DNA from: Chrysomallon squamiferum
Taxonomy: Eukaryota > Mollusca > Gastropoda > Neomphalida > Peltospiridae
Direction of reading: 5' to 3'
DNA: 64,000 nt
Assembly: GCA_012295275.1 (NCBI GenBank)
Contig: CM022674.1
Span: 16,381,649 to 16,445,648 of the forward strand
Part shown: positions 15,655-56,354 of the stretch, piece by piece
Numbering within the stretch: the first letter of the stretch is position 1
Layout of the letters: every line of letters starts with the position of its first letter
Notes under the pieces: generated by a model
What the model was told of the DNA's origin: nothing
Database searches by the model: none
Seen by the model: the letters and a program-made list of their open reading frames with translations, nothing else
Made by a program: the position numbers and the translations under genes

Positions 15655-18600
15655 TTAGTTACTATCTTTAGCTGCATACTCCAATAAAAAGGAAACAGTT
15701 TCATTTATATCGCTGTAACTCTTAGCTATTTCAAGAGGAGTTTCACCTTGGCCATTTTTAACATTTACATCAGCACCTTTTTCAATCAGTGCTGTAACAA
15801 TTTCTACATTTCCATCTTCAGTTGCTAAGTGTAAAACAGAATTATTATCATTGTCTGTCAAATTAGGATCAGCTCCTTGTTTTAGTAAATACAAAAATAT
15901 GTTGTAAAGGTCAAACTCAACAGCTGTAAAAAGAGGAGTTTCACCTTGCATATTCCTTATATTTACATCAACACCTTTTTCAATCAGTGCTGTAACAATT
16001 TCTACATTTCCATTTTCAGCTGCTAAGTGCAAAACAGAATTGTTATGATTGTCTGTTAAATTAAGATCAGCTCCATGTTCCAGTAAAACCAAAGCTACGT
16101 TTGTCTTAGAGGACACAGGTGGATCTTGTAAAAAATGAAATTTATTGTAGTTCAGAAATGTAAAAAGAGGAGTTTCACCTTTCATGTTCTTTCCATTTAC
16201 ATTAAAACCTTTATCAATCAGTGCTTTCACAATTTCTACATTTCCATGTTCAGCTGCTAAGTGTAAAACAGAATTATTATCATTGTCTGTTAAATTAGGA
16301 TCAGCTCCATTTTCCAGTAAAACCAAAGCTACGTTTCTCTTAGAGGACACAGGTGGATCTGCAAAACGAAAACATTGATAGTATTTCAGAAATGTAAAAA
16401 GAGGAGTTTCACCTTTCATGTTCTTAGCATTTACATCAACACCTTTATCAATCAGTGCTTTCACAATGTCTACATTTCCATGTTTAGCTGCCAAGTGTAA
16501 AACAGAATTGTTATAATTTTCTGTTAAATTAGGATCAGCTCCATTTTCCAGTAAAACCAAAGCTATGTTTGTCTTAGACAACACAGGTGGATTTTGGAAA
16601 AAAACTAAATTCTTTGTGTTTCACACATGTTAAAAGAGGAGTTTCACCTTTCATGTTCTTAGCATTTACATCAACACCTTTATCAATCAGTGCTTTCACA
16701 ATGTCTACATTTCCATGTTTAGCTGCTAAGTGTAAAACAGAATTGTTATAATTGTCTGCTAAATGGGGATCAGCTCCTTGGTTTAGTAAATATAAAGCTA
16801 TTTCTGGTCTGTGACAACTCAAAGATACATGAAGAGGAGTTTTCTCTTCAATGTTAATTGCATTTATTTCAGCACCCTTTTTTGTTACTTCTTTCACAAC
16901 ATCTATGTCAATTTTAGAGGCTATGTGCAATGCTGAATTCTCGTAGTAATCTTTTATATCGGTATCAGCACCTTTCTTCAGTAACAACAAAGCTACTTCC
17001 CTTCTGTGTGTCACTGCGTTTACAGCTTCATGAAGTGGAGTGTTTCCCTTACTGTTTACTGCGTTAACATCAGCATTTCTCTTTATCAGTGATTTTATCA
17101 TATCTAAGTCACCACGCAGAACTGAAATGTGGAGGGGTGTGTATGAAGGCAACAATTCTACATTATTTTCATCTTCAAACAACTGAATCAATTTCTGATT
17201 AACAGCTACATTAACATTAGGATCAGCTCCCTTATAAAGAAGACACTGAACAGCACATGCACTGTTAAACATCACTGCTGCTTTCAGTACTTGACTTTTC
17301 TTCCAGTTCTCATCTGTATCATTACATCTCTGCTCAAGGAGAAAATTCACTGTATCAGTAGCTCCCCATACTGCTGCTGCTAAAAGTAGTTTATCTCTGT
17401 TCTCATCATTTAAACAATCAGGTTTCAGTTTTACTATTTCTTTTATAACACCAGAATTACTCTGACAAGCAGCAATAATAGCAATGTGTATAATTTTGTT
17501 TATTATATCAATGGTAACCAGTTTTTTAAAAAGATGGCTTACATCAACAACTTCAGCAGTATTCGACTCCCAAAAATGCCAATATTCTGAATCAAGTATT
17601 ACTTGTCTATGGAACCTAACCAATAGCAGTTTAATGGCTTTTTCCTTGATTTCACTGTTGTGTTTCTCATTTTTTATCATTTCAGCTAACATACATGCAA
17701 TTGTCATATTACCTGAACAAATAGAAACAAGTAAGAGATGTGAATAGTCATGGAATTTCCTCTCTGTTTCACACTGTAACAGTTCTTTGAGTATGGTAGC
17801 ACTGTCTGTTTTTGAACAAGCAGCTACCCGCAATGTATCAAATGCTGGAATAACACCTGATTTTAGCAACGTTCTCACAACATCTTCATCACCAAACAAA
17901 CAAGAAATATTCAAAAGTTCTTTTTTCAGATTTGTTAATTTCATTTTACACAGATTTTCAGTGAAAAATCTTGACAATGTTTTTAATCCCTTCACAATAC
18001 ATTCACTTTGAACAGATGGCGAAATTTCAAAATGTGTTTCAGTGTGCAAATGCATATTAATAGAACACTCTGAATAACTTTCAAGAAGACATGAAATATT
18101 GCTAAATATTTCATCAAGATTGTCTACATTTACAGATGATATATACAAATGTTCATCTTGATCTTTATGTAGTTGTTGATGAACTATTTTAAACAATTTA
18201 TCATTAAAGTATTTTTTCTCTATGAGATACTTCACAAACTCTTCATCTTTCAATGATGGATGTGAAATAATGTCTTTGGCATTGCTTGATGCCAACAAGT
18301 CAGTAAATCTCCGAGCAAGAACATCAAAGCAGTTAGGTTTCACAGTCATTGTAATGTGACTTTTGTTAGACACTCCAGGCGTCACAACATATTCTAACAA
18401 CATGGAGACAGGACACAATTCTAACAACTCTGCTGCTTTTTTTGGAAACTGTGATGCATACATCAGAAACAATGAGTCAAACACTGACTGGTGAATAAAT
18501 GTGTATTCATTGTCGGAACACTTCAAATAGGTACCACACATTTCATCAGCTGTTTTCTTTATAGCTGTGAGACCAGTGTTCAGACCAGTATTCAGACAGG

Positions 18601-19440
18601 CTTTCTCTAGCAGTCTTACTAATTTCATTATGTCGCTGTCGGTGTCATTTTCAAATGGGTCCAGTGAATCAATCCTGAGACTGTCTTGTTGAAACAAGAT
18701 CAGCAGTAGAACCAGGTAATTGATCTGTGAAGATTTATCATTTTTCAAATTTTCCAGTTGTTCTCTGAGATATTCTACAGGTTTCTGAAAAAACTCAACT
18801 CCTCTTTTCTGTGCATCACTTGAATTAACATAATACAGACACACCTGAGGAAATCCTAACTTTGTACATGAGCAGAAAATGACAGTAATTTTATAAGCTT
18901 CATCCATTCTAACATTCTTTTGTTCAAGATATCTGTTTAGAATTTCTAGCTTCTCATCATAATTCAGACAACATTCGTCGCTCTGCAGGTCAAGGATATG
19001 ATTTTCATTGAACAGATCAAATTCCTTTAGATTAGCTATACTTTCTGTAAATATTTGTTTTCTTAAAGTAATAATACATCTCACACACTTGTCTTTAACA
19101 AGACTCCACACCTCTGGAAATAGCTGTTTCCAGCACGAAACAAAATCTAATACAAGATTAGTTTTACCAAATATGTCATCAATGAGAACAATACATGGTT
19201 TATCTTTAGACACAGGAATGTATTTGAAATCAGAGTGATGAGTCACGATGTAAGAGTCTATTTTTTCTTTTTCTCTATCTGTTTAATCATGTTCAGACCT
19301 AGAGTTGTCTTTCCTGAACCTGGACTTCCTACTACAATAACAACAACATTTCTTTTTCAAAAGTGTTAGTCCTCTTTCTTCTGCTCTTGTTTCAACATAG
19401 ACTCTCCAGTCAACTGAGTTTAACTGTGACCTGGTAGAAT
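15655..19440 (-). CDS. STAND NTPase-ankyrin repeat protein, main 3' exon, copy 1 (frame breaks)
   Basis: The exon starts at the acceptor TGATACAG at 19,441-19,448 and ends at the stop at 15,655. It begins with VDWRVYVETRAEERG, the usual lead-in of nSTAND3-like proteins, then a P-loop (VVGSPGSGKTT), Walker B (CIVLIDDIFG), a sensor-like RCIITLRK, a helical region, and about 14 ankyrin repeats such as SVLHLAAEHGNVEIVKALID. STAND NTPases bind ATP, oligomerise and signal; the ankyrin part probably binds the trigger. Three breaks: one extra base just before the P-loop (about 19,340-19,352), one missing base in an A-rich run near 19,260-19,272, and one extra base in a 7-base run at 16,598-16,604. 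The first two put the P-loop out of frame with a stop. All three lie in or near homopolymers, so error is possible. Upstream exons are listed separately. Confidence 0.85.
16080..16760 (-). repeat. about 235-bp tandem module, two ankyrin repeats per unit
   Basis: The phrase DPPVSSKTNVALVLLENGAD followed by SVLHLAAEHGNVEIVKALID recurs with landmark positions near 16,086, 16,326 and 16,557. Each unit holds one normal ankyrin repeat and one with an inserted stretch of about 12 residues before the second helix. Copy 2 has only one such unit, so this pair was amplified in copy 1. Confidence 0.8.
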
Positions 19441-19716
19441 CTGTATCACAACATTTAAAAAAATAATATCTATTATTAACATATTTAAATATATTTCACT
19501 ATTTAGATATAGATAATATAATTTTAAACTAGTCATCAGATGTGAAACTTTTAAAATAAAGCAGCAATTTTTTGTTATAATTTTTGGACTTCATCAGAAT
19601 TTAATGATAATACCATATCACAGTTTTAGATGCTGCAAAAATAACATAATGATTATCTTCTTATAAATTAACATCTTTCAGAAGTAAAAAAAAAAATAAA
19701 ATAAAATAAAAAATAC

Positions 19717-19749
19717 CTTTCATATGGGACGCTTGTCCATCAGTCTTTG
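19717..19749 (-). CDS. 33-nt micro-exon of the STAND-ankyrin gene, copy 1
   Basis: The exon lies between the acceptor ATATCATTTCAG and the donor GTATTTTTTA. It begins with two bases and ends with one (phase 1 to phase 1) and encodes KTDGQASHMK. The same exon with the same splice sites is found in copy 2 at 54,075-54,107 (KTDERAFHMK). Its phase joins cleanly to the exon at 21,163-21,261 upstream and the main exon at 19,440 downstream. Confidence 0.75.
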
Positions 19750-19978
19750 CTGAAATGATATAAAAAATAAAACAAGTAAATTTATATTACTGATGATGAG
19801 AGCAAAAGAGAAATTATTAAAGTGAAATATACAGTTACTCTGTACTTCATTCATGGAACAGTCAACATATAACATTATTATTATCTTTCTGATTTATTTT
19901 AGTAGAATTATTACTACTAGTATTAAAACTACTGCTGTTGTTTTTTCTCACTATTGTTACTTAGTTATTGTTATTGTT

Positions 19979-19980
19979 CA

Positions 19981-20026
<46 letters not shown>

Positions 20027-20028
20027 TT
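19979..20028. repeat. (ATT)n microsatellite
   Basis: About 16 ATT units in an intron of the copy 1 gene. The flanking phrase with TAATTATTACTACTAG recurs near 22,425-22,540 and in copy 2 near 54,250-54,350, so this piece was duplicated within copy 1. Confidence 0.85.
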
Positions 20029-20135
20029 TTTTGTGTTTTTAATAATTGCAAGTGAAAATAATGACATATATATTGGCTTGATTAATGTATGCTGAATTCT
20101 CTTAAAAAAAAAATCTAGATAAGATTGATGGCACT

Positions 20136-20140
<5 letters not shown>

Positions 20141-20196
<56 letters not shown>
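20141..20196. repeat. (TG)n microsatellite
   Basis: About 27 uninterrupted TG units in intronic sequence of copy 1. Confidence 0.9.
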
Positions 20197-20200
<4 letters not shown>

Positions 20201-20685
20201 ACGTCATAAGCACATAAGACAAAAAAGTGCGCTGGCGTAACATTTGTTATTATTACTGTTATTTAATTATTATTTTACAAACATTAACAAATCATAAACT
20301 TCAAACATTTTAGTTCCAAATTATAAGCACTCCTAGGTAGTCCATGACTTAAGTTTCTTCAAATTGTACGACGAGTGTTAGGAGGGCTGCTTTGGATCTC
20401 ACAGATTTGGGAAATTTTTAAATTACTGATTGTCCAGCACTAACATGTGTTATGACATTTTCCATATGGAACTGTTCTAATCTGATTGCTTCAATATTAA
20501 ACTGTTCAGTTTCACAACTTACAAGCATTATTTCTCAGATCCATATGTAAATCATCCACTGCACACAGTATGAATAAAATCTGTCATTTGTTAGTATTAT
20601 TGAATAAAACAATATGTTTTAAAAAATGTATAATAGTCTTTATATTAAATGCCTGCATCTCTGCGTTCGTGAGTTTTTGAGGTTT

Positions 20686-20716
<31 letters not shown>

Positions 20717-20836
20717 TGTCTATGTTTGTGTGAATATTGTTCAGGTCACAGAATCTGATAGAAAAATACTAATCACTATTTTGATGCATATTCTAATAAC
20801 AGGCAGGCAAAACAAATGTTTCCATTTTCGACTTGC

Positions 20837-20888
20837 TAATTAAATATTTTTTTCTCCTAATAGAACATTTCTAAAGTGAGATATATCT
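20837..20888 (-). pseudogene. decayed RHIM-exon remnant
   Basis: The minus strand encodes ISHFRNVLLGEK and then loses frame, with one base fewer in an A-run than the paralogous exons. It matches the RHIM-like exon of copy 2 (54,706-54,787; ISHSGNVLLG) and, more weakly, the intact one at 24,352-24,438. The donor has become GCAAGT and the 5' half is replaced by other sequence, so it is probably not spliced. Confidence 0.55.
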
Positions 20889-21162
20889 TAGTCACCCAGG
20901 CCAATGTTGTTGATGTGATGAATGGCAGTTTAATTTTATCCATGAGCAAGCTATCATTCAGCATAGCACAAAATTTTGTACACAACTCATGTGAACTATA
21001 TGGTCGTTCACACAATTTGTGCACTCTTGGTGGGTAGGCATGTATGTATGTATTATATCTGTGTTTGCTTGTGCTGGTCATAATGTTTGATATTAAAATA
21101 CTACCGATTAATGTGACATATATTTCTGTAATCTATTAAGAATATTTTGGTGTTTAACTTAC

Positions 21163-21261
21163 TGGTTTTCACAGCTTCATCTCCTAATACACTACTTCTG
21201 TTACTTGATAGATTTGTATCTGTTCTCATATTTACATTACGTTCTACCACTGCTCGTTCTG
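21163..21261 (-). CDS. linker exon of the STAND-ankyrin gene, copy 1 (33 residues)
   Basis: The acceptor is TTTCTGTTTGCAG and the donor A|GTAAGT. It is 99 nt, phase 1 at both ends, open throughout and polar: ERAVVERNVNMRTDTNLSSN followed by RSSVLGDEAVKT. It joins in frame to the RHIM exon upstream and the micro-exon downstream. I did not find this exon in copy 2, where the intervening DNA is shorter. Confidence 0.7.
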
Positions 21262-21847
21262 CTGCAAACAGAAAAATAAATTATTTAAACTCACAGCCTA
21301 CAAGTGTTATTTCTAAAATTGTCTGTAGCTACATATAGAGCATACAGTATCAAAAATGTGTTTGTGTGTGTGTACTTTTGCATATATCACCAGCTATTGC
21401 TAAAACATGCATATTGACATAAAATAATGAAAATGACAATTTAAGAAGCAGTTTCTAAAAACAAAGGTGAGCAAAAATGTCTAACTGCACATAATAGCAT
21501 ATCACAGTATCCTTGGATAGTGTACTGGTTACTGGTTGAGATAGGTCACACATGACAGGTGGGCTTTGTATTCTGGACAACATTAATAGGTTCAAGAAAT
21601 TTAGTCAGTGTTTCATTTAATGAAAAATAAGTAATTTTGTTATGGTAAAATGTAGCTATGTAGTTGCTAGAGGTCAGCACTGCAGTAAAATTACTTCTAA
21701 ACAGTAACTGAGTAAGCTATGTTATGCAGCTTGTCTGTTAATCAATTTACTTGAGTAGTTTTACTTGTGTAGTTCACTGCTGTTTTATCTTACATCCAGT
21801 AAGATCATGTGAACCAAAACAGGATAAAACTTCCATCAAGTTTACAA

Positions 21848-21849
21848 AT

Positions 21850-21884
<35 letters not shown>

Positions 21885-21975
21885 CATATTCATATATATA
21901 CATATATACATACATATATACATACATATATATACATATATACATATACAATACATACATACATTGATACACATA
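21848..21975. repeat. (CA)n/(TA)n/(CATA)n microsatellite
   Basis: A compound CA, TA and CATA repeat. Related compound repeats lie at about 22,118-22,290 and 22,507-22,620, the last directly beside the Tc1 insertion. Confidence 0.9.
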
Positions 21976-22117
21976 TATACATTCTTCTCTGTGCTTTACT
22001 CCTACAGTTTATGTTAATAAAGTCATTATCATTGTGACAATTGTAGAGAAAACTTTTTGTGGCACTTTATCATAACACAATCTCTTAGAAAGCAAGTCAG
22101 CACCAATGAAAACTCCA

Positions 22118-22175
22118 ACTATACATATATATATATACAAAAAAAATGTATAACGTGTATATATATATATATGTA

Positions 22176-22207
<32 letters not shown>

Positions 22208-22290
22208 TATTTGTGTGTATGTATGTATATATGTATATATGCATATGTGTGTGTGTGTGTGTCTGTATGTTCTTATATTTATATATAAGA
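22118..22290. repeat. compound (TA)n/(TG)n microsatellite
   Basis: TA repeats flank TG repeats. Near 22,270-22,300 a TTCTTATATTTATATATAAGAA palindrome can fold on itself. The short Tyr-Ile and Cys-Val frames here are repeat artefacts. Confidence 0.85.
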
Positions 22291-22506
22291 ACATACACAC
22301 CAAACTCGTAAGTACATACATTGTTATTAACTATATAAAAATTAGGATCTTTACTTTTGTGTACTAGAAGATGTTTTCCTAAGATTTTTCATATAACATT
22401 CTTATTACGTCTTCTGATTTATGTTACTATAATTATTACTACTAGTATTAAAACTACTGCTTTTTTTTTGTTCTCACCATTGCTATTTAGTTATTGTTAT
22501 TGTTTT

Positions 22507-22623
22507 ATTATTATTATTATTATTATTATTATACACACATACATACATATATATATACATATAACCATATATACATACATACATATATACATACAATCAT
22601 ATATATATATATATATATATATA
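22507..22623. repeat. (ATT)n then (CATA)n/(TA)n microsatellite at the Tc1 insertion site
   Basis: Simple repeats ending in TATATATA, giving the TA target used by the Tc1 element that starts at 22,624. Confidence 0.85.
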
Positions 22624-24052
22624 CTCCCAAAAAAAAAACGCAAAATGGTTGATTTGTTAGATAACTATTGTAAACTGACACATATCAATTTACAGACTAT
22701 GAATATAATGACATTTCGTGATTCAAACGTATAGCTTTTGTTACTGTCAGAAAAAAAGCAGGTAACACAAAATAAAGAGGATGATCGTCTTTATTAGGCA
22801 AAACGTCCCCGCATGGAAACCATGTTACCAGTGCATGTGCATTTGCAGCACAAGAAACTTGAATACGAGGGTTATAAAAAGGCAAGGCTTTCGAAAACTT
22901 CTGTTCGTTATCTTTGTTCTGACCCAACATCAAACAAATGCCACGACTGAGTGAACCACAATTTACAAGCTGGCGAATCCTTCTCGGCCGCAGCCCAGGT
23001 GTTCCATGTATCCCCAAGCACCATCTTGAGATTGTGGTATTGGTTCCAGCAACACCAAACAACGCATGACCGTCCCAGATCAGGTAGACCACGTGTAACC
23101 ACCAGGGCCCAGGGCCGCTACATAGGGTACTTCATCTACGGGAAAGAACCACTACTGCTACCTCTACTGCTTCAGCAATACCAGGTCTGCGTAGAATATC
23201 GGCTCAGACAGTGCGCAATCGTTTACGCGAGGCAGGTATTCGAGCCAGACGGCCTGTAAGAAGACTGGTTCTGACTCAACAACATCGTCGACTACGACGT
23301 CAGTGGTGTCAACTGCACAGAGTCTGGCCTCAGTTACAATGGAGAACTGTCTGGTTTAGTGACGAGGCTCGATTTCAACTTCGTCAAGCTGATGGAAGAT
23401 GTCAAGTTTACAGACGTCATGGTGAACGTTTTGCTGCAAACTGCATACAGGAAGCGGAAACTTTTGGCGGTGATAGTGTGATGTTGTGGGCAGCAATCTC
23501 ATACACTGGCAGGACCAACCTGGTTTACATCCAAGGCAACATAATGGCACAGAGATACCGAGATGAAATTTTTTTGCGACAGGTCGCTCCAATTATGAAT
23601 AATGGTAACGCTGTATTCCAGCACGACAATGCGAGACCACATACAGCCAGACTCACAACAGTGTACCTACACAACAATAACATTCAAGTCCTGCCGTGGC
23701 ACTCTAAATCTCCGGATTTGAACCCTATAGAGCATTTATGGGTCGAGTTGGATAGACGACTGAGGCAGCATCAACCACAGCCACAGAATCATTCTTAGTT
23801 GGCATTATTACTACAGACAGTGGGCCATGGGAAGAAGATGTCAGGAAGTTTTGGACTCCCATGATGGGCACACAAGGTATTGATATTATACTGTTATAAC
23901 GTTGAACTTTAACCTTTTCAATGTAATACCATCAATATTAATGAACTGCGAAAGTGTGTGTAAAATGTGAACATTCTGCTGCTTTCTGTTCATCCATTAG
24001 ATAGATATTCCCAATGTCAATAAAATCTACTTTTGCATTTCTTTTTGGGGAG
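22624..24052 (+). mobile_element. Tc1/mariner-type transposon in an intron of the STAND-ankyrin gene
   Basis: About 1.43 kb. The short terminal inverted repeats read CTCCCAAAAAAAAAACGCAA at the left and, reverse-complemented, CTCCCCAAAAAGAAATGCAA at the right. A TA precedes the left end and TA-rich repeat surrounds both. Copy 2 of the block has no element at the matching place (about 54,540), so insertion followed the duplication or split the two haplotypes. It is fuller than the copy at 4,770-5,835. Confidence 0.85.
22937..23798 (+). pseudogene. Tc1/mariner DD34E transposase, frameshifted
   Basis: A start-like MPRLSE at 22,937, then the helix-turn-helix part in another frame (SFSAAAQVFHVSPSTILRLW), then the catalytic part from 23,211 in a third segment. 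WFSDEARF, QHDNARPHTA and PDLNPIEHLWVE give the catalytic triad with 34 residues between the second Asp and the Glu (DD34E). Frame breaks near 22,950 and about 23,110-23,210 and an early stop after HQPQPQNHS make it inactive. The family cuts and pastes at TA dinucleotides. Confidence 0.85.
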
Positions 24053-24351
24053 AATATATATGTACACAGACACACACCCACAAACATTACCATTTCAGTG
24101 TACATGTACTTCTTAATTCTATGATAAAAAAATTCCTGAATGTTTCGGCAAATTATTGATTAGGTATTCTATTGTAATGCTACTTATGAATGTTTACAGT
24201 TTTTCTTAGCAAATATGTTTCTTGTGATGACATGATGACATCAATATTAAAAACATCAAAATACATGCATGATATTATTGGAAAGGATGTTATATGTGAA
24301 TGCCAAATATATTCGTATCTCAGAATTTGGACTCGTCTCCTTTGAACTTAC

Positions 24352-24438
24352 TAATTATCTTGTTTTTGGCTCCTATTTGAACATTTCCACAGTGATGTAT
24401 GTTTACTGTTTGTTTTACAAGTTGTATTTTTTGAGTAT
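24352..24438 (-). CDS. RHIM-motif exon of the STAND-ankyrin gene, copy 1
   Basis: The exon is 87 nt, with acceptor TTCTCTTTCACAG and donor A|GTAAGT, phase 1 to phase 1. It encodes a segment with NIHHCGNVQIGAKNKI. VQIGAKNKI matches the RHIM consensus [IV]-Q-[IVL]-G-x-x-N-x-[IML] at every defined position, and the residues before it resemble those before the core in vertebrate RIPK1/RIPK3. RHIMs assemble into functional amyloids and pass signals in necroptosis and, in insects, in Imd signalling. Here the exon joins in frame to the 9-residue-repeat exon upstream and to the linker, micro-exon and STAND exons downstream. That the whole chain is one transcript is inference from phases and order. 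Confidence 0.75.
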
Positions 24439-24962
24439 CTGTGAAAGAGAATAAATACATTTTTAAGAATAGAATACAGTATTAATAAAATCAATTAAAA
24501 GTATTATTGCATATAACAATATATCATTTAAAAATGTTTTTAACTGATTATGTGCAGGTGCTATGAAATAAGTATTACTTCATAGTATTAAAATGTATAA
24601 CAGTAAATACAAAATTAATTAGAATGGTTATGATGAACTAACAAAACAGTAACTAGAGTGTATTTTACTTTACTGTTTTAATCTGTAAAACAAAACGGCC
24701 ATAACAAAGTATAAACTTAATTCATTATCAGTATAACTTTTAAAAGTGTCAGTTTACTAATGCCTAAGATGTAACTAAACAATACATTCAAACACTGTAT
24801 TGATACAAATGTAATATGTACTTTTGTCAGTTTAGAATTTACCATCAATAAACAATACAATATACTGAAATATTCTATTATAACAAATATAAAAATAATG
24901 TTGACTCTTTATAATTTCTTGTTAAAAAAGTAAACAGTACATTTAAATACTGTGTGTGTTAC

Positions 24963-25264
24963 CATGACTGCTTGACACAGGTAGTTGTAAATGATGTTCT
25001 GTACGAGTGATGTCCAAGGAAGACTGAGATGTGATGCCAGAGAGAGATAGACTTGACATATTGTCTAAGAGAGACACAGCTGTCACAGTCTCTGCAGAAG
25101 AAACAGCTGTCACAGTCTCTTCAGAAGAAACACCTGTCACATTCTCTTCAGAAAAAACAGCTGTCACAGTCTCTACAGAAGACACAGCTGTCACAGTGGA
25201 CGAAACAGCTGTTGTGTTAGAAGAATCTTCTGAACTCTCCTTTTTGACATCTATATTGGCTGAG
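24963..25264 (-). CDS. 9-residue-repeat Ser/Thr/Val-rich exon of the STAND-ankyrin gene, copy 1
   Basis: The exon is 302 nt, with acceptor TTTTTTACAG and donor CATG|GTAACA. It starts with one base and ends with one, fitting both neighbours. After an acidic start (DVKKESSEDSSNTT) come five 27-bp units coding for variants of TVTAVSSAE, then a Ser-rich tail. It is a low-complexity spacer ahead of the RHIM. Copy 2 has nine units. The plus strand is also open across the repeat, but its splice context points to the minus strand. Confidence 0.7.
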
Positions 25265-25800
25265 CTGTAAAAAATATGATTGTTTTATATATATAAGGAA
25301 GAAAAGAAATGTGTTATTTACTTATTTTATTTACTGTTATACCGGGTCAGACATAAGATTTAGGAACAGTCAGAAACCCACAGCAGTCACTTCACCTGTC
25401 TACTCTCTCTTATTAACAACAAGTTATGTTTAATTTATACCTACCTACAAACAGTAAAAACTATACATCAGGTGTTGAGCACTGCTAAAATGAAATCAGG
25501 TCAAGATTCCATCAGCAGGAATTGATCCAAATATCTACTACACCTTTCAAACTTTACTAGAGACCTACATCTAGTACCTTGTATTAATACCAGCATTGAC
25601 TCATAGACTGTATTCTCAATTTGGTTCTATAAATAAATGCCTCAAACATTTTTTTAAAATAATGAAATAAAAAAAGGCTTAAAATAAATATCCCCATTTT
25701 TTAAAAAGAGGTGTTTGATCATGTTATTGAGAAATACTCAAGAAAACACAATTTTTCAATACTGTTACCTAAAACCATAGTTCTAATTAATTAATCTTAC

Positions 25801-25920
25801 CTCATTTTGGATTTGTTCTTTTCCTTCTTTTTAGAGGGTGGTGATGGGGTAACTGGGGCAGGTTCTGACTGTGGGTTCCTCTGTTTCTCAGCTGTTCTGC
25901 TGCTTTGCTCTGTAGTCAAA
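25801..25920 (-). CDS. Pro-rich/Lys-rich exon of the STAND-ankyrin gene, copy 1
   Basis: The exon is 120 nt, with acceptor CTGTGTGTTTCAG and donor GAG|GTAAGA, phase 2 to phase 2. It encodes a disordered piece with EPAPVTPSPPSKKKEKNKSK, a possible nuclear-localisation-like basic cluster. The copy 2 exon at 56,235-56,354 has the same length and splice sites, and most changes keep the Pro/basic character. This is the most 5' exon I can support; the true start of the protein lies further upstream and was not found. Confidence 0.7.
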
Positions 25921-29775: not shown

Positions 29776-29903
29776 CAGCAGTAGTGACACAACTTATTCG
29801 CCATCTCCTCGCTCTGTGATTCACCCAGCAATGAGCTACTTTGTGTAGCTTTCAGAGTACTCCGTGCAGACACTGTTTATTTATTTATTTATTATTATTA
29901 TCA

Positions 29904-29956
<53 letters not shown>

Positions 29957-30582
29957 TTATTTTGATGTTCTGGAACAAATTGTTACCTATATTCGGAATA
30001 AAATTCACATGACTAACACGCCCATCTCTTAGTTTGTTCTAGTTAGCTGGTTTATCAATACATTATCACTGAAAATATCAGTCTACTTTCTAAGTTCGTC
30101 ATGTTTCTGAAAGCTGATTTCACGTTAAAGTCAGAAAGATATTGGAGAGATTATCAACAATGTTGAATAAAATTATAATAGTTCTGTATTTCAAAAGTAA
30201 AATGATATGAAATAAATATTTTAAATTTACTTTTGCTTCTCTCATGAGTCAGGGTTTTCGAATTAAATTAAGTAGGCCTCAGTAAAAAAAATTCAAATCT
30301 GACGTCTAATCTGCAGAAACTCTTTAAACTAGAATGAACAAACGGGTACAGTAGTAGGAAGAAAAGTAAATGTGTTATTATACTGACTGTTGAAATTATA
30401 TTTAAAAACAAAAACACATTTTAATCAAAACCGTCACAAAAATTAACTGAAGAATAAAAGTAAAAATAAATAAATAAACAAACACAAAAAAAAGGATAAA
30501 GAAATGGAACGAAATACGGACATATGCCCTCCAAATCAAAAAGTGCAAGGGGACTAAATCCACCAGTAGAAATGCAAGATAG
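29776..30582. repeat. dispersed repeat module, right half
   Basis: It matches the d-to-j part of the tandem units at 60,207, 61,650 and 63,000 onward: the phrase TCTCGCTCTGTGATTCACCC, a TTTATT/(ATT)n tract, 'AAAGCTGATTTCA', 'GTAGGCCT' and a closing 'ATGCCCTCC'. The satellite starts directly after it. Confidence 0.75.
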
Positions 30583-33500
30583 GATAAAGTTAGTATTATG
30601 GTTAGATTTAGTTATCTGTTTACCTTATGACTAGGGTTAAAGTTAGTATTATGGCTAGATTTAGTTATCTGTTTACCTTATGACTAGGGTTAAAGTTAGT
30701 ATTATGGCTAGATTTAGTTATCTGTTTACCTTTTGACTAGGGTTAAAGTTAGTATTATGGTTAGATTTAGTTATCTGTTTACCTTATGACTAGGGTTAAA
30801 GTTAGTATTATGGCTAGATTTAGTTATCTGTTTACCTTATTACTAGGGTTAAAGTTAGTTTATATTTAGATTTAGTTATTTGTTTTACCTTTATTTTAGG
30901 GTTAAAGTTAGTATTATGGTTAGATTTAGTTATCTGTTTTACCTTATTACTTAGGTTAAAGTTAGTTATTATGGTTTAGATTTAGTTATTTGTTTTAAAT
31001 TTATGACTAGGGTTTAAAGTTAGTATTATGGTTAGATTTAGTTATTTGTTTACCTTATGACTAGGGTTAAAGTTAGTATTATGGTTAGATTTAGTTATCT
31101 GTTTACCTTATGACTAGGGTTAAAGTTAGTATTATGGTTAGATTTAGTTATCTGTTTACCTTATGACTAGGGTTAAAGTTAGTATTATTATTATATTAGA
31201 TTTAGTTATTTTTTTTTACTTATATGACTAGGGTTAAAAGTTAAAATTATTATATTATTTTAGTTATTTGTTTTACCTTTTACTTTACCTTATGACTAGA
31301 GTTAAAGTTAGTATTATGGTTAGATTTAGTTATCTGTTTACCTTATGACTAGGGTTAAAGTTAGTATTATGGTTAGATTTAGTTATTTGTTTACCTTTTG
31401 ACTAGGGTTAAAGTTAGTATTATGGTTAGATTTAGTTATTTGTTTTTACCTTATGACTAGGGTTAAAGTTAGTATTATGGTTAGATTTAGTTATTGTTTT
31501 TATTACTTTAAAGTTAGTTATTATTAAATTTTAGTTATTTAGTTTATTTATTAAAGTTATTATATTTAGGTTTAGATTTAGTTTTTGTTTTTTTTAGGGT
31601 TAAAGTTAAATTATGGTTAGATTTAGTTATCTAGTTTTTATTTACTAGGGTTAAAGTTAGTATTATTATTAGATTTTAGTTATCTGTTTTATTATAGGTT
31701 TAAATACTATTAGATTTAGTTATTTAGTTTTTATTATACTAGGTTAGATTTAGTTATTATGGTTAGATTTAGTTATCTTTTACCTTATGACTAGGTTAAA
31801 AAGTTAGTATTATGGTTAGATTTAGTTATCTGTTTATCTTTGACTAGGGTTAAAGTTAGTATTATGGCTAGATTTAGTAATATGTTTACTTATTACTAGG
31901 GTTAAAGTTAGTATTATGGTTAGATTTAGTTATCTGTTTACCTTATGACTAGGGTTAAAGTTAGTATTATGGCTAGATTTAGTTATCTGTTTACCTTATG
32001 ACTAGGGTTAAAGTTAGTATTATGGTTAGATTTAGTTATCTGTTTACCTTATGACTAGGGTTAAAGTTAGTATTATTATTAGATTTAGTTATTAGTATTT
32101 TATCTTTTTTAGTTATCTGACTTTAGGGGTTAAAGTTAGTATTATGGTTAGATTTAGTTATCTGTTTACCTTATTTACTAGGGTTAAAAAGTTAGTATTA
32201 TGGTTAGATTTTAGTTATCTGTTTTTATGACTAGGGTTAAAAAGTTTAGTATTATGGTTAGATTTAGTTATCTGTTTATTTTTTACTAGGGTTAAAAGTT
32301 AGTATTATGGTTAGATTTAGTTTATCTTTTTACTTTTTAAATATAGTTTTAAGATTTAGTTTATTACCTTTTTAGTTAAAGTTAGTTATTATGGCTAGAT
32401 TTAGTTATCTGTTACCTTACCTTAGGGTTAAAAGTTAAGTTTATTATGGTTAGGTTAGTTATCTATTTACTGTTTACCTTATTAGGGGTTAAAGTTAGTA
32501 TTATGGTTAGATTTAGTTATCTGTTTACCTTATGACTAGGGTTAAAGTTAGTATTATGGTTAGATTTAGTTATCTGTTTACCTTATGACTAGGGTTAAAG
32601 TTAGTATTATGGTTAGATTTAGTTATTTGTTTACCTTATTACTAGGGTTAAAGTTAGTATTATGGTTAGATTTAGTTATCTGTTTACCTTATGACTAGGG
32701 TTAAAGTTAGTATTATGGTTAGATTTAGTTTTTTTTTTACCTTATGACTAGGGTTAAAGTTAGTATTATGGTTAGATTTAGTTATTTGTTTACCTTATGA
32801 CTTAGGGTTAAAGTTAAAGTATTATGGTTTAGATTTAGTTTATCTTTTTTATCTTATTTTACTAGGGTTAAAGTTAAAGTATTATGGTTTAGATTTAGTT
32901 TATCTGTTTACCTTTATACTACTTAGGGTTAAAAGTTAGTATTATGGTTAGATTTAGTTATCTGTTTTTACTTATGACTAGGGTTAAAGTTAGTATTATG
33001 GTTAGATTTAGTTATTTTATTTTTTTACCTTTTGACTAGGGTTAAAAGTTATTATTATGGCTAGATTTAGTTATCTGTTTTACCTTATTAGACTAGGGTT
33101 AAAGTTAGTATTATGGTTAGATTTAGTTATCTGTTTACCTTATGACTAGGGTTAAAAAGTTAGTATTATGGTAGATTTAGTTATCTTTTTACCTTTAAAA
33201 GTTAGTATTATGGTTAGATTTAGTTATCTATTATTATTTACTAGGGTTAAAGTTAGTTATGGTAGGTTTATTTATCTTATTTACCTTATTATTATGACTA
33301 GGGTTAAAAGTAGTATTATTAGATTTAGTTATCTGTTTACCTTATGACTAGGGTTAAAGTTAGTATTATGGTTAGATTTAGTTATCTGTTTACCTTATGA
33401 CTAGGGTTAAAATTATGTTAGTTTAGTTATGGTTTAGATTTATTTTTTAGTTTAAAGTTAGTATTATGGTTAGGGTTAAATCTTTTTACCTTATTATAGG

Positions 33501-36500
33501 GTTAAAATTAGTATTTGGTTATATTTAGTTATCTGTTGTTATTACTAGGGTTAAAGTTAAATTATTATTAGATTTAGTTATTTGTTTATCTTTTTTTACT
33601 TTATGTTAAAAAAGTTAGTATTATTATTATGGTTTAGATTTAGTTATCTGTTTTACCTTATGACTAGGGTTTAAAGTTAGTATTATGGTTAGATTTAGTT
33701 ATCTGTTTACCTTATGACTAGGGTTAAAGTTAGTATTATGGTTAGATTTAGTTATTATGTTTATTATGACTTATCTTAAAGGTTTAAAGTTAAAGTTAGT
33801 ATTATGGTTAGATTTAGTTATCTGTTTTTACCTTATGACTAGGGTTAAAAGTTTAGTATTATGGTTAGATTTAGTTATCTGTTTACCTTATGACTAGGGT
33901 TAAAAGTTAGTATTATGGTTAGATTTAGTTATCTGTTTACCTTATTTAGGGTTAAAGTTAGTATTATTTTAGATTTAGTTATCTGTTTTAAATTTTATTT
34001 TATGGTATTTAGGTTAAAGTTACTAGGGTTAAAGTTATTATGGTTAGATTTATATATCTGTTTTACCTTATGACTAGGGTTAAAGTTAGTATTATGGTTA
34101 TTTTAGTTTAGTTTATTTGTTTACCTTACTACTAGGACTAAAAAAAGTTAGTATTATGGTTAGATTTAGTTATCTGTTTGTTTACCTTATGACTAGGGTT
34201 AAAGTTAGTATTATGGTTAGATTTAGTTATCTGTTTACCTTATGACTAGGGTTAAAGTTAGTTTATTATTATTTTATTAGATTTATTATTTATTTTATTA
34301 TTTACCTTTTACTAGGGTTAAAGTTTAGTTATGGGTTAGATTTAGTTATCTGTTTACCTTATGACTAGGGTTAAAGTTAGTATTATGGTTAGATTTAGTT
34401 ATTACTTTTTAGGGTTAGTATTATGTTTTAGTTATTTTTATTACCTATACTAGGGTTAAAGTTAGTTATTATGGTTAGATTTAGTTTATTTATTTACCTT
34501 ATTAGGGTTAAAGTTAGTATTATGGTTATTTTTAAGTTTTACCTTATTATATATTTACTTTAAATTAGTATTTGGTTAGATTAGTTATATTTTATTATTT
34601 TAGGGTTAAAAAGTTAGTATTATGGTTAGATTTAGTTATTTATTACCTTTTTTACTTAGGTTAAAAAGTAAAATTATTATGTTATGGTTTAGTTTATTAT
34701 CTGTTTACCTTATGACTAGGGTTAAAAGTTAGTATTATGGTTAGATTTAGATTTAGTTATCTGTTTACCTTATGACTAGGGTTAAAGTTAGTATTATGGT
34801 TAGATTTAGTTATTTGTTTACCTTATTACTAGGGTTAAAGTTAGTATTATGGTTAGATTTAATTATCTGTTTACCTTTTGACTAGGGTTAAAGTTATTAT
34901 GGTTAGGGTTAAAGTTAGTTTATTAGTTTACCTTTACCTTAGGGTTAAAAGTTAAAGTATTATGGTTAGATTTAGTTATTTGTTTATCTTATTTACTAGG
35001 GTTAAAGTTAAAGTTTATGGTTAGATTTAGTTTATCTGTTTTTTCCTTATGACTTAGGGTTAAAGTTAGTATTATGGTTAGATTTAGTTATCTGTTTACC
35101 TTATGACTAGGGTTAAAGTTAATATTATGGTTAGATTTAGTTATCTGTTTACCTTATGACTAGGGTTAAAGTTAGTATTATGGTTAGATTTAGTTATCTG
35201 TTTACCTTATGACTAGGGTTAAAGTTAGTATTATGGTTAGATTTAGTTATCTGTTTACCTTATGACTAAGTTAAAGTTAGTATTATGGTTAGATTTAGTT
35301 ATTATATTTTTAGTTATTTGGTTAGATTTAGTTATCTGTTTATGACTAGGGTTAAAGTTAGTATTATGGTTAGATTTAGTTATCTGTTTACCTTATGACT
35401 AGGGTTAAAGTTAGTATTATGGTTAGATTTAGTTATCTGTTTACCTTATTACTAGGGTTAAAGTTAGTATTATGGTTAGATTTAGTTATCTGTTTACCTT
35501 ATGACTAGGGTTAAAGTTAGTATTATGGTTAGATTTAGTTATCTGTTTACCTTATTTTTATACTAAAGTTAGTATTATTATGGTTAGTTATTTGTTTTAT
35601 TACTTTTTTACTTAGGGTTAAAGTTAAATTATGGTTAGATTTAGTTATCTGTTTTTACCTTATGACTAGGGTTAAAGTTAGTATTATGGTTAGATTTAGT
35701 TATCTGTTTACCTTATGACTAGGGTTAAAAGTTAGTATTATGGTTAGATTTAGTTATCTGTTTACCTTATTACTAGGGTTAAAAGTTAGTTTATATTAGA
35801 TTTAGTTATTGTTTACCTTATGACTAGGGTTAAAGTTAGTATTATGGTTAGATTTAGTTATCTGTTTACCTTATGACTAGGGTTAAAGTTAGTATTATGG
35901 TTAGATTTAGTTATCTGTTTACCTTATGACTAGGGTTAAAGTTAGTATTATGGTTAGATTTAGTTATCTGTTTACCTTATTACTAGGGTTAAAGTTAGTA
36001 TTATGGTTAGATTTAGTTATCTGTTTACCTTATGACTAGGGTTAAAGTTAGTATTATGGTAGATTTAGTTATCTGTTTACACTTATGACTAGGGTTAAAG
36101 TTAGTATTATGGTTAGATTTTAGTTATCTGTTTACCTTATTACTAGGGTTAAAAGTTAAAGTTAGTATTATGGTTAGATTTAGTTATCTGTTTACCTTAT
36201 TACTAGGGTTAAAAAGTTAGTATTATGGTAGATTTAGTTTATCTGTTTACCTTATTTACTAGGGTAGGGTTAAAGTTAGTATTATGGTTAGATTTAGTTA
36301 TCTGTTTACCTTATGACTAGGGGGTTAAAGTTAGTATTATTATGGTTAGATTTAGTTATCTGTTCCTTATTATGACTAGGGTTAAAGTTAGTATTATGGT
36401 TAGATTTAGTTATCTGTTTACCTTATGACTAGGGTTAAAGTTAGTATTATGGTTAGATTTAGTTATCTGTTTACCTTATGACTAGGGTTAAAGTTAGTAT

Positions 36501-39200: not shown

Positions 39201-39558
39201 GCTACTACTACTTATAATCCCAAACATTACGTCATCCGACACACAGTTATGGATGACGAATACCATTAAATCATGTGGGACAAGCAATAAGATAAAAATT
39301 TGACGTCTAATCAACTGAAACACTTTAAGGTGGAATAAACAAACGGGCACAGTCGTAGGAAGAGAATAACCCTGTTGTTATACTGACTGTTAAAATTAAA
39401 TTAAAAAAAAAAAGACATTTTAAGAAAAACTCTCAGAAACGTTAACTGAAGAATAAAGGTAAAATAAATAAATAAAAAAAAACAAAAAAAACAACAACAA
39501 CAAAGAAACAAACACAGACTGGTACTGGGCAAATGCCCTCCCAGTATAAATAATAATA

Positions 39559-50440: not shown

Positions 50441-53400
50441 TCAAAATGCATTTATGTTACTATATTTAGCACCATGCTCTAGTAAATAGGAAACAATTTC
50501 CCTTCTGTAACTCTTTGCTTTGTCAAGAGGAGTTTCACCTAGACTATTTTTAACGTTTACATCAACACCGTTTTCAATCAGTGCTGTCACAATTTCTAGA
50601 TTTCCATGTTCAATTGCTAAGTGCAAAACAGAATTCTTATCATTGTCTCTTAAATTAGGATCAGCTCTTTCTTTTAGTAAATACAAAAGTATTTTGTAAT
50701 GCTGAAACTTAACAGCTGTAAAAAGAGGAGTTTTACCTCGCATGTTCCTTACATTTACGTCAACACCTTTTTCAATCAGTGCTGTCATAATTTCTACATT
50801 TCCATGTTTAGCTGCTAAGTGTAAAACAGAATTGTTATCATTGTCTGCTAAATTAGTGTCAGCTCCATGTTTTAGTAAAGCCAAAGCTACTTTTGTCTTA
50901 TCAGAGGAAATAGCTGGGTCTTCAAAAAATCAACTTTGTTGGGTGTGTATTTCAGAAATATAATAAGAGGAGTTTCACCTTGCATGTCCTTACAGTTTAC
51001 ATCAGCACCTTTTTCAATCAGTGCTGTCACAATTTCTACATTTCCATATTTAGTTGCTAAGTGTAAAAGATAATTGTTATCACTGTCTGTTAAATAAGGA
51101 TCACATCCTTGGCTTAGTAAATATAAAGCTATTTCTGGTCTGTGACAGATCAAGGATACATGAAGAGGAGTTTTCTGTTCAGAGTTAATTGCATTTATTT
51201 CAGCACCCTTTTTTATTACTTCTTTCACAACATCTTTAGCAATTTCAGAGGCTATGTGCAATGCTGAATTCTCGTAGTCATCCTTTATATTGGTATCAGC
51301 ACCATTTTCCAGTAACAACAAAGCTACTTCCTTTCTGTTTTTCACTGCATTTACAGCTTCATGAAGTGGAGTTTCTCCCTTACTGTTTACTGCGTTAACA
51401 TCAGCATTTCTCTTTATTAGTGATTTTATTATATCTAAGTCACCACGCAGAACTGAGATGTGGAGGGGTGTGTCTGAAGGCAACAATTTGAAAGTAATTT
51501 TGACACTTAACTGTTTGAATTCAATTTCTTCTTCAAACAATTGAATCAGTTTCTGATTAACAGCTACATTCACATTAGGATCAGCTCCTTTATCAAGAAG
51601 GCACTGAACAACGTCTGCACTGTTACACATTACTGCCGCTTTCAGTACTTTACTTTTCTTCCAGTTCTGATCTCCATCATAACGTCTCTGCTCAATGAGA
51701 AAATTCACTGTGTCAGTGGCTCCCCATACTGCTGCTGCTAAAAGTACTCTATCTCTGTTCTCATCATTTAAACAATCAGGTTTCAGTTTTACTATTTTTT
51801 TTATAACACCAGATGTATTCTGACTAGCAGCAATAATAGCAATGTCTTTAATTTTGTTTATTATATCAATGGTAACCAGTTTCTTAAATGGATGGCTTAC
51901 ATCAACAACTTCAAAAGTCTTTGACTTCCCAAAATACCAGTTTCTTGATTCACGTCTTAGTTGTCTATGGAACCTAACCAATAATAGTTTAATGGCTTTT
52001 TCCTTGATTACACTGTTGTGTTTCTCACGGTTTATCTTTTCAGCTAACAGACATGCAATCTTCATATTACCTGAAAAAATGGAAGCAAGTAACAGAGGTG
52101 AATATTCATTCAAACTAATATTTCTTTTACTCTGTAACAGTTCTTTGAGTATGGCAGCAGTGTCTGTTTTTGAAGAGGCAGCTGCATTCAATGTCTTCAG
52201 TTCTGGAATAACACCTGATTTTAGCAACATTTTCACAACATCTTCATCACCAAACAAGCAAGAAATATTCAAAAGTTCTTTTTTCAGATTTGTTAATTTC
52301 ATTTTACACAGATTTTCAGTGAAAAATCTTGACAATATTCTTAATCCCTTCACAATACACTCGCTTTGAACAGATGATGAAATTTCAAAATGTTTATCAG
52401 TATCCAAATACATGTAACTAGAACACTCTGAATAATTGTCAAGAAGACGTGAAATATTGCTAAATATTTCATCAAGATTGACTACATTTACAGATAATAT
52501 ACACAAATATTTATTTTGATGTTTATGTAGTCGCTGATGCAGTATTTCAGACAATTTATCATTAAAGTATTTTTCCTTTATGAGATACTTCACAAACTCT
52601 TCATCTTTCAATGATGGATGTGAAATAATTTCTTCGGCATTGCTTGATGCCAAGAAGTCAGTAAATCTCCGAGCAAGAAAATGAAAGCTGTTAGGTTCCA
52701 CAGTCATTGTAATGTGACTTTTGTTACACACTCCAGGTGTCACAACATATTCTAACAACATGGAGACAGGACACATTTCTAGCAACTCTGCTGCTTTCTT
52801 TGGAAACTCTGATGAAAACATCAGAAACAATGAGTCAAACACTGACTGGTGAATAAATGTGTATTTATTGTCAGAACACTTCAAATAGGTACCACACATT
52901 TCATCAGCTGTTTTCTTTATGTCTGTGAGATCAGTATTTTTAACACCCTGACAGATTCGCTCTAGCAGTCTTACTAATTTCATTATGTCACTGTCAGAGT
53001 CATTTTCAAATGGGTCCAGCAAATCAATGCTGAGACTGCCTTGTTGAAACAAGATCAGCAGCAGAACCAGGTAATTGATCTGTGAAGCTTTATCATTTTT
53101 CAAATTTTCCAGTTGTTGTGTGAGATATTCTACAGGTTTCTCAAAATACTTAACACCCCTTTTTTGTGCGTCACTTGAAATAACATAATACACACACACC
53201 TGAGGGAATCCTAACTCTGTACATGAACAGGAAATGACAGTCTCTTTATCATCTTCATCCATTGTAATATTCTTTTGTTCGAGATATGTGCCTAAAATGT
53301 CTAACTTCTCATAATAATTCAGACAACATTCATCGCTTTGCAGGTCAAGGAGATGATTTTCATTGAACAGATCAAAATCCTTCAGAATGGCTATACTTTC

Positions 53401-53795
53401 TATAAATATTCGTTTTCTTAAAGTAATAATACATCTCACACGCTTCTCTTTAACAAAACTCCACAGCTCTGGAAATATCTGTTTCCAGCACCACACAAAA
53501 TCTAATACAATATTAGATCTGCCAAATATATCATCAATGAGAACAATACATGGTTTATCTTTAGACACAGGAATGCATTCGAAATTAGAGTGATGAGTCA
53601 CGATGTAAAAGTCTATTTTTTCTTTTTGCTCTATCTGTTTAATCATGTTCAGACCTAGTGTTGTCTTTCCTGAACCTGGACATCCTACTACAATCACAAC
53701 ACCATTCTTTTTCAAAAGTGTTACTCCTCTTTCTTCTGCTCTTGTTTCAACATAGACTCTCCAGTCAACTGAGTTTAACTGTGATCTGCTAGACT
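50441..53795 (-). CDS. STAND NTPase-ankyrin repeat protein, main 3' exon, copy 2
   Basis: The exon starts at the acceptor GTTCTGATACAG before 53,795. After VDWRVYVETRAEERG comes an intact P-loop (GVVIVVGCPGSGKTT), Walker B (CIVLIDDIFG), sensor-like VRCIITLRK, a long helical region with degenerate ankyrin-like pieces, and about ten ankyrin repeats (TPLHISVLRGDLDIIKSLIK onward) to a stop at 50,441. It closely parallels copy 1 but has four fewer ankyrin repeats. One frame break: a 6-base run at 50,924-50,929 needs one more base to link KVDF with the following DPAISSDKTKVALALLKHGA. The family binds ATP and oligomerises on triggering; the ankyrin part is the likely sensor. This copy is the better template for the NTPase. 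Confidence 0.87.
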
Positions 53796-54074: not shown

Positions 54075-54107
54075 CTTTCATATGGAACGCTCGTTCATCA
54101 GTCTTTG
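54075..54107 (-). CDS. 33-nt micro-exon of the STAND-ankyrin gene, copy 2
   Basis: It has the same splice sites, length and phase as 19,717-19,749 in copy 1; it encodes KTDERAFHMK against KTDGQASHMK there. The changes are mostly amino-acid changing while length is kept. Confidence 0.7.
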
Positions 54108-54540: not shown

Positions 54541-54705
54541 ATTCATATCTCAGAAAAAAAAATAGACTTGTCTCCTTTAGGATAACTGGTCACATTTGTT
54601 ATTGTTATTAATTTCTGTGTCTGAGAGAAAAGCACAAATGTGTATTCTGTTTTATATCAAAACATGTACAGAAAAAGAAAAGTTTTAGTTTTAAATGTAT
54701 TAATT

Positions 54706-54787
54706 AACTGACTTTTGTTTCCTAATAGAACATTTCCAGAGTGACTTATGTTTACTCTTGGTTGTACAAGTTGTCTTATTGGAGTAT
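54706..54787 (-). pseudogene. RHIM-like exon of copy 2, core Gln and donor lost
   Basis: The acceptor TTACTGTTTCACAG is kept and the frame opens as in copy 1: DTPIRQLVQPR then NISHSGNVLLGNKSQLI. The core reads V-L-L-G instead of V-Q-I-G, and the base pair that forms the donor GT in copy 1 (A|GTAAGT) is AT here (A|ATACAT). Either a different donor is used or the exon is dead. Its likeness to the remnant at 20,837-20,888 shows that two RHIM-exon types existed before or during the duplication. Confidence 0.6.
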
Positions 54788-55252: not shown

Positions 55253-55682
55253 TTAATAATTTCCTATTAAAAAATAAACAGTACATTGAAATACTTGTAA
55301 ACGACGCTCTGTATGTGTGATGTCAAAGGAAGACTGAGATGTCATGCCAGAAAGAGATACACTTGTCATATTGTCTAAGGGAAACACAGCTGTCACAGTC
55401 TCTCCAGAAGAAACAGCTGTCACAGTTTCTGCAAAAGAAACAGCTGTTAAAGTCCCTACAGAAGAAACAGCTGTCACATTCTCTGCAGAAGAAAGAGCTG
55501 TCACAGTATGTGCAGAAGACACAGCTGTCACAGTATGTACAGAAGACACAGCTGTCACAGTGTCTGCAGAAGAAACAGCTGTCACAGTCTCTGCAGAAGA
55601 TACAGCTGTCACAGTCGTCCAAACAGCTGTTGTGTTAGAAGAAACTTCTGAACTCTCATTTTTGTCATCCATAAAGGCTGAG
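55253..55682 (-). CDS. 9-residue-repeat exon of the STAND-ankyrin gene, copy 2
   Basis: The acceptor TTTGTTTACAG matches copy 1. After DDKNESSEVSSNTT come nine 27-bp units (TVTAVSSAE and variants), four more than copy 1. The segment that holds the donor in copy 1 (about 35 bases around CATG|GTAACA) is deleted here; the frame reads on past TTACAAGTATTTC to a stop at 55,253. A cryptic donor CAA|GTATTT exists but in another phase. So copy 2 may make a short secreted-out or truncated product, or be a pseudogene at its 5' end. Confidence 0.6.
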
Positions 55683-56234: not shown

Positions 56235-56354
56235 CTCATTTTGGATTTGTTATTTTCCTGCTTTTTAGGGGTTGGTGATGGGCTGACTGGGGCAGGTTCT
56301 GGCTCTGGGTTCCTGTGTTTCTCAGCTGTTCTGCTGCTTTGTTTTGTAGACAAC
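56235..56354 (-). CDS. Pro-rich/Lys-rich exon of the STAND-ankyrin gene, copy 2
   Basis: It is 120 nt with the same splice sites and phase as 25,801-25,920. It encodes LSTKQSSRTAEKHRNPEPEP, then APVSPSPTPKKQENNKSKM. Pro-rich and basic, probably disordered. No start codon within it can be defended; earlier exons are unknown. Confidence 0.65.

Follow-up and report, generated by a model that had tools for sequence, protein, structure and literature searches.

A RHIM-type exon ahead of nSTAND3 and ankyrin repeats in an expanded STAND gene family of the snail Chrysomallon squamiferum

Introduction

In animals, RHIM signalling has been described for proteins of a few kinds, namely kinases, a nucleic-acid sensor, and adaptors with TIR or Death domains; IMD is one of these Death-domain adaptors. 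Fungi and bacteria, for their part, have STAND receptors that carry amyloid tags. Here, we describe a 64,000-nt stretch of contig CM022674.1 of the snail Chrysomallon squamiferum (the window, position 1 being its first letter), in which a short exon coding for a RHIM core precedes the exons for an nSTAND3 NTPase and ankyrin repeats. As predicted from the DNA, RHIM, nSTAND3, and ankyrin repeats form a real new domain combination in an expanded gene family, with a putative function in signalling. We think it probable that both gene copies in the window are damaged members of a large STAND-type receptor family, in which N-terminal RHIMs clustered by the NTPase would template RHIM adaptors, by analogy with described systems.

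The metazoan RHIM proteins (RIPK1, RIPK3, ZBP1, TRIF, and the IMD pathway) resemble the snail sequences in having a VQIG-type tetrad with a following N. However, their RHIM is carried by a kinase, a Z-nucleic-acid sensor, or a TIR or Death-domain adaptor, whereas in the snail it is carried by a STAND NTPase. Spiralians, the zebra mussel among them, and lancelets are reported to have RIPK1 homologs with a RHIM tetrad and a Death domain (PMC12119088). In fungal NLRs with PP (RHIM-like) motifs (PNT1/HELLP and relatives), the similarity is of another sort: a STAND receptor carries a short amyloid motif and through it templates a partner that has this motif as well (PMC12881547). PNT1 combines NB-ARC with TPR and has a HeLo-like pore-former as partner, whereas the snail genes combine nSTAND3 with ankyrin repeats and have candidate partners with TIR or Death domains. 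The STAND expansions of marine invertebrates with TRADD-N, Death, or HEPN are also alike, in that a lineage-specific N-terminal signalling module is joined to a STAND NTPase or to ankyrin repeats; they differ in that the word RHIM is absent from the accessible portion of that text (PMC8195603). Searches of open PMC full text, some of them covering the 15–25 top-ranked papers of larger sets, listed no animal STAND protein described as having a RHIM; as subscription papers and preprints fall outside this scope, absence from print is weakly supported.

Results

The window contains two tandem copies of the gene on the minus strand (Table 1). Exon 3 of copy 1 reads TQKIQLVKQTVNIHHCGNVQIGAKNKII, with the core VQIGAKNKI, and its translation fits the consensus [IV]Q[ILV]G..N.[ILM], in agreement with the sequence-only reading that this 87-nt exon encodes a RHIM core. 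The window has one such strict core in all six frames together, whereas the expectation, taken from 150 Markov-simulated windows, is 0.027 per window. RHIM (PF12721) is the sole Pfam family matched, always below its curated cut-off of 20 bits: the exon alone scores 17.4 bits, a 53-aa piece 15.2 bits, and the 241-aa N-terminus 12.0 bits. The nSTAND3 domain (PF20720), with a cut-off of 27.2 bits, scores 44.3 bits in the open part of copy 1 and 74.5 bits in copy 2. A PDB sequence search with the RHIM exon gave a single match, a sarcoglycan (E 0.099), which we took as chance.

The six proposed exons of copy 1 are all preceded by AG, and the first five are followed by GT, as had been read from the DNA. 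Their phases give one frame, which holds only up to a frameshift in exon 6. The complete architecture is found in a paralog, L005, located 0.7 Mb away (C10:15,675,607 downwards). This gene has exons 1–6 with AG and GT at every junction, and a single frame of 2,253 aa runs through the six exons with HHCGNVQIGAKNKLI (RHIM VQIGAKNKL), nSTAND3 (86.1 bits), and many ankyrin repeats. A Walker A motif (GSPGSGKTT) and a Walker B motif (IVLIDD) can be read by eye, and ankyrin repeats are above cut-off in L005 as well as in the window copies. At the DNA level, L005 is therefore predicted to unite an N-terminal module, a STAND NTPase, and C-terminal repeats in one protein. The proposal of an animal STAND protein with a RHIM ahead of nSTAND3 and ankyrin repeats is hence borne out by intact DNA in L005, while the window copy from which it was drawn is frameshifted. 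NACHT stays under its cut-off in copy 2 and L005; NB-ARC does so in copy 2 and is missing from the matches of L005. Hence, we do not file these proteins as NLRs in the strict sense.

We searched the genome (404.6 Mb in 22 contigs) for further members. The nSTAND3 region of copy 2 gave 97 matches, which merge into 84 places, fragments included, with 37 on C14, 16 on C11, and 14 on C10. The peptide of the window RHIM exon (hereafter the type-1 exon), searched with E up to 10, gave 22 matches, and all 22 lie upstream of an nSTAND3 match, on the same strand and at most 17 kb from it, in 15 genes. Taken together, the 20-kb stretches upstream of the 66 STAND matches considered here amount to 0.16% of both strands; the 22 matches are paralogs and not independent events. 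At the search sensitivity used, the type-1 exon is thus, by sequence, a part of this STAND gene family and of no other gene. Seven of its copies form an array of decayed exons (VHLGVEDNL), mostly ~2.5 kb apart, upstream of an nSTAND3 gene (C14:262,390-275,990; L065-L072). Outside the array, 14 of 15 exons keep both splice sites with a GTAAGT donor (one acceptor was read by eye), the exception being window copy 2, and all measurable lengths (87, 84, or 75 nt) are divisible by 3. Q-[IM]-G is kept in 9 of these 15, and the strict core in 4 of the 22 matches, window exon included. Additional RHIM-type exons occur in the upstream stretches of L012 (FQIGDNCEI, with splice sites), L020 (VLIGDNSTL), L014 (frameshifted), and L015 (no splice sites).

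Upstream of L003, L016, L018, and L028, stretches of up to ~8 kb gave no type-1 exon; the last three carry a second kind of motif exon (type 2). This exon precedes exon 5 in genes on C14, C11, C12, and C3, has sequences such as VNISTVQNYQDLSNCRNVVFGNQIIKTS, and corresponds in alignment to exon 4 of the window gene. A genome search with it gave 31 matches, of which 28 are at most 20 kb upstream of nSTAND3, in 27 genes. As the type-2 exon has no Pfam match, we call it RHIM-like by eye.

Could the type-1 exon be a short hydrophobic linker without an amyloid role, whose fit to a loose nine-residue consensus is accidental? In favor of this, the core is short, VLIG, VLLG, or VVIG replaces VQIG in several members, and 14 of the 16 type-1 exons scanned are under the Pfam cut-off. 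Seven of the 16 nevertheless match Pfam RHIM, two of them above cut-off (L010, 21.4 bits; L060, 20.1 bits), and four further paralog exons score 16.3–19.7 bits; for two members, the E-values against all of Pfam are 1.8e-4 and 4.6e-4. Moreover, the pattern of change is that of a RHIM. In a rate comparison of 13 spliced exons (one of 14 was dropped, since its peptide duplicates that of another exon), amino-acid change among the nine core positions is slowest at the six defined RHIM positions, which is 1 arrangement of 84 (by hand), the sixth only narrowly so (0.289 vs. 0.296). The G is held in 12 of 13 and the N in 11 of 13, and change is concentrated at the “x” positions of the motif. Because of the position pattern, the Pfam E-values, and the rarity of strict cores in simulated windows, we consider an origin by chance alone unlikely.

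The main rival explanation is that the RHIM exon is a relic, once functional and now drifting, and that most STAND genes work without it. Many observations weigh in this direction or against a family that signals through its RHIMs. The type-1 exon was found by search at 15 of the 84 STAND places, leaving 69 unmatched, and a type-1 or type-2 exon at 41 of 84. The Q is absent from 6 of the 15 non-array exons (VLIG, VLLG, VLFR, or VVIG), 9 of the 16 exons scanned have no Pfam RHIM match, and a scan of a 961-aa stretch of the L005 protein did not list its RHIM. The seven array exons have stops before the motif and no donor was found for them; the copy 2 exon, also without a donor, reads VLLGNKSQL and has lost two core residues. 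Between the two window copies, exon 3 shows 16 amino-acid-changing differences and 1 silent difference (ratio 5.14), and the corresponding ratios are 1.36 for exon 1 and 1.59 for exon 2. Over 10 RHIM exons, the ratio is 1.74. A conservation test over 18 positions gave 5.7%. Finally, in a tree of 30 STAND genes, members bearing the Q are confined to one side of the midpoint root. In favor of such a family, however, RHIM-type exons as such are found on both sides of this root.

Several features are difficult to reconcile with such a relic, and we regard it as unlikely overall. Outside the array, the splice sites and the reading frame of the exon are retained almost throughout, as described above, and substitutions largely spare the defined positions. 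Divergence is lower in the part of the exon compared (0.213) than in the first part of the intron that follows (0.292), and an intact gene, L005, exists. The substitution ratios are no such feature: amino-acid to silent change stands at 0.82 in the core of six strict-core members and, between the window copies, at 0.77 for exon 6 past the first frameshifts, and purifying selection on the RHIM exon is not shown by these ratios. Constraint therefore rests on the position pattern and the splice sites. We also considered positive selection on the RHIM exon and dropped it, since 16 vs. 1 is not significant alone (rough estimate) and copy 2 is decaying.

Database relatives from other species also count against signalling through the RHIM. 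Three protein searches listed 15, 3, and 24 proteins (40 distinct), the nearest from Gigantopelta aegis and Haliotis. Gigantopelta belongs to the same family as C. squamiferum (PMC7895826). A strict RHIM is absent from all 40, including those of these two genera, and none stands out on the family profile; as 6 of the 15 non-array exons also lack the Q, the motif is not kept throughout the family. A bare Q-x-G tetrad occurs somewhere in 6 of the 40, in none with the rest of the core. Two Gigantopelta models (P0001 and P0002) start ~40 residues before Walker A, so N-terminal exons may be missing from them and the absence of a RHIM is not proven. Candidates picked by eye, TNISNASNVSVGDL in Haliotis and VTIQ, VALG, and VLGP near the STAND start in Gigantopelta, lie within the family-profile background and were not used. 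In overall layout, the nSTAND3–ankyrin proteins of molluscs (Gigantopelta, Haliotis, and Ostrea) are like those of the snail, with nSTAND3 followed by ankyrin repeats, and six of them show 22–38% identity to the L005 stretch. They differ in having no strict RHIM, and the Ostrea protein has a HEPN (HEPN_DZIP3) at the N-terminal position.

The sequence-only reading had also placed the receptor outside the usual adaptor chain. Our analysis does not show this. A TICAM-like TIR frame with a RHIM downstream and RHIM-plus-Death-domain genes occur in this genome too, so it is simpler to suppose that the receptors signal by way of RHIM adaptors. When the RHIM core was searched as a DNA pattern, 164 genome places matched, against 142 for a reversed control, so most of these are chance, and our candidate partners come from the first ~100 of the 164. 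There are 31 Death-domain places in the genome. Two of the places listed are on C3, with RHIM cores at distances of 502 and 484 bp upstream of Death domains; the Death-domain cluster there (C3:1,593,458-1,624,377; L076, L080) has two members with an IQIGNNN core ~0.5 kb upstream. One of these candidates has an exon-like stretch with STIQIGNNNEMYTG (RHIM 17.0 bits), then Death domains; the one Death domain scanned scores 53.4 bits. No kinase motif was found in the 5 kb upstream of one C3 candidate, which weakens a RIPK1 reading of these genes and makes an IMD-like one equally possible.

The second candidate, on C5, reads VNIIQPKYVQIGDHNVL and was chosen because it occurs as a tandem pair (RHIM 15.0 bits). 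At C5:7,622,626-7,624,700 (L077-L079), a TIR frame is followed downstream by the RHIM-like VQIGDHNVL, with a second copy of the motif 7.7 kb further on. The TIR frame scores 22.7 bits with Pfam TIR_2, below the cut-off of 28, and a PDB search found three solved relatives, all TICAM-2 (best E 8e-6). TIR and RHIM may belong to one protein, and the locus is possibly an invertebrate TRIF-like adaptor. The RHIMs of both partner candidates, at the scores given, are below the Pfam cut-off, which is a further point against signalling through RHIMs. In addition, four identical strings coding for VQIGYKNYF lie on the same strand within 18 kb at C1:24,869,913-24,887,951, among the matches listed.

Neither window copy is intact as assembled, each having frameshifts and/or lost splice sites, which again argues against the proposed receptor. 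In exon 6 of copy 1, a +1 shift near 19,351 and a −1 shift near 19,272 span Walker A with a stop in between, and a further 1-nt frameshift lies near 16,602. Walker A is thus out of frame, single-base changes that the sequence-only reading had overlooked. Copy 2 is a tandem duplicate at ~50.4-56.4 kb; the stretch at 50.0-59.7 kb matches most of 15.2-29.2 kb at 85–87% identity, and BLAST did not find exon 4 in it. The shifts at 16,602 (copy 1) and 50,931 (copy 2) are both of 1 nt, lie in the same T-rich ankyrin tract, and by eye go in opposite directions; this pair may reflect assembly error or slippage.

An alternative is that copy 1 is intact and that errors in nanopore reads account for the frameshifts seen in the assembly. 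The published C. squamiferum assembly was built from R9 MinION reads into 15 linkage groups and 7 unanchored contigs (PMC7142155). If this is the assembly at hand, indel errors in the window are a live possibility. Runs of A or T contain or adjoin the indels, and one T-rich tract is hit in both copies. However, copy 1 has three separate indels in one gene, one of them is a lost C rather than a change in run length, and 48 of the first 53 STAND matches listed in the same assembly are without a stop (hand count). We therefore hold this alternative to be plausible, yet less likely than real damage; barring assembly errors at the indels, copy 1 probably does not encode a working receptor. The 5' edge of exon 1 of copy 1 is an acceptor, which the sequence-only reading did not point out, and translation would have to begin either in another exon upstream or at the ATG that closes exon 1.

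Table 1. Exons of the two gene copies in the window and a decayed exon copy
Feature	Position	Strand	Remarks
Exon 1, copy 1	25801..25920	-	Lys/Pro-rich; 5' edge is an acceptor; homologous exon in L004, L005, L007, L010, L012
Exon 2, copy 1	24963..25264	-	Ser/Thr/Val-rich, TAVSSAETV repeats; 108-nt (36-codon) internal gap relative to copy 2
Exon 3 (RHIM exon), copy 1	24352..24438	-	87 nt, phase-symmetric, NIHHCGNVQIGAKNKII
Exon 4, copy 1	21163..21261	-	Aligns with second RHIM-like exon (RNVVFGNQVI) of other family members; no Pfam RHIM match
Decayed second RHIM-exon copy	20831..20879	-	RNVLLGEKN with stops
Exon 5, copy 1	19717..19749	-	33 nt
Exon 6, copy 1	15655..19440	-	nSTAND3 NTPase and ankyrin repeats; frameshifts near 19,351, 19,272, 16,602
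Exon 1, copy 2	56235..56354	-	
Exon 2, copy 2	55292..55682	-	3' end with donor deleted
Decayed RHIM exon, copy 2	54701..54787	-	NVLLGNKSQL; acceptor retained, GT donor lost
Exon 5, copy 2	54075..54107	-	
Exon 6, copy 2	50441..53795	-	973-aa frame, open across nSTAND3; last ankyrin repeats preceded by frameshift near 50,931

As for the rest of the window, the intron after the RHIM exon of copy 1 contains an open frame on the plus strand (23,088-23,798), with a similar stretch at ~5,016-5,832, which we take to resemble a Tc1/mariner-type transposase. Tandem satellite repeats with a period of ~53 bases, as judged from self-matches, fill ~6.7 kb (30,582-37,283), and a 2.8-kb inverted repeat, 92% identical, is formed by 40,305-43,090 and 45,115-47,868. 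A Ser/Thr-rich, repetitive open frame on the minus strand (48,062-48,751; SSTSTASTSNTTP) is mucin-like. Repeated segments at 59,666-63,725 (also 29,797-30,476 and 39,070-40,046), some with short ATG frames followed by GT (e.g., MSKNWVTIA), are perhaps copies of a promoter or first exon. We dropped the short frames at 59.7-63.7 kb as first exons because, by eye, their phases do not fit exon 1.

Discussion

The ancestral layout of this family was likely a Ser/Thr-rich tail, one or two short RHIM-type exons, an nSTAND3 NTPase, and an ankyrin sensor. In the mechanism that we favor, the ankyrin repeats would recognize a ligand and the NTPase would oligomerize, as expected from the biology of STAND proteins. 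By analogy with fungal NLRs and animal RHIM proteins, the N-terminal RHIMs clustered in this way could then nucleate a small amyloid, which would serve as a template for RHIM adaptors. The candidate adaptors are the TICAM-like TIR-RHIM gene and the RHIM-Death-domain genes (IMD/RIPK1-like), and the output might be NF-kB-type or cell-death signalling.

A bolder version can be offered tentatively, and we would not rate it as the likelier outcome. In it, ~50 to 80 STAND-ankyrin genes would use diversifying amyloid tags (of the VQIG, FQIG, VLIG, and RNVVFGNQ type) to seed the TICAM-like TIR-RHIM and RHIM-Death adaptors. The logic of fungal NLR amyloids would thereby be joined to the animal RHIM pathway, possibly tuned to tell symbiont from pathogen.

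If the proposed receptor is real, an animal STAND-RHIM protein would join animal RHIM signalling to the STAND-amyloid logic of fungi and bacteria. L005 and the two partner candidates, present in the same genome, provide concrete constructs. It would then become testable whether NLR-amyloid templating is ancestral to animal necroptosis and IMD signalling, or was reinvented.

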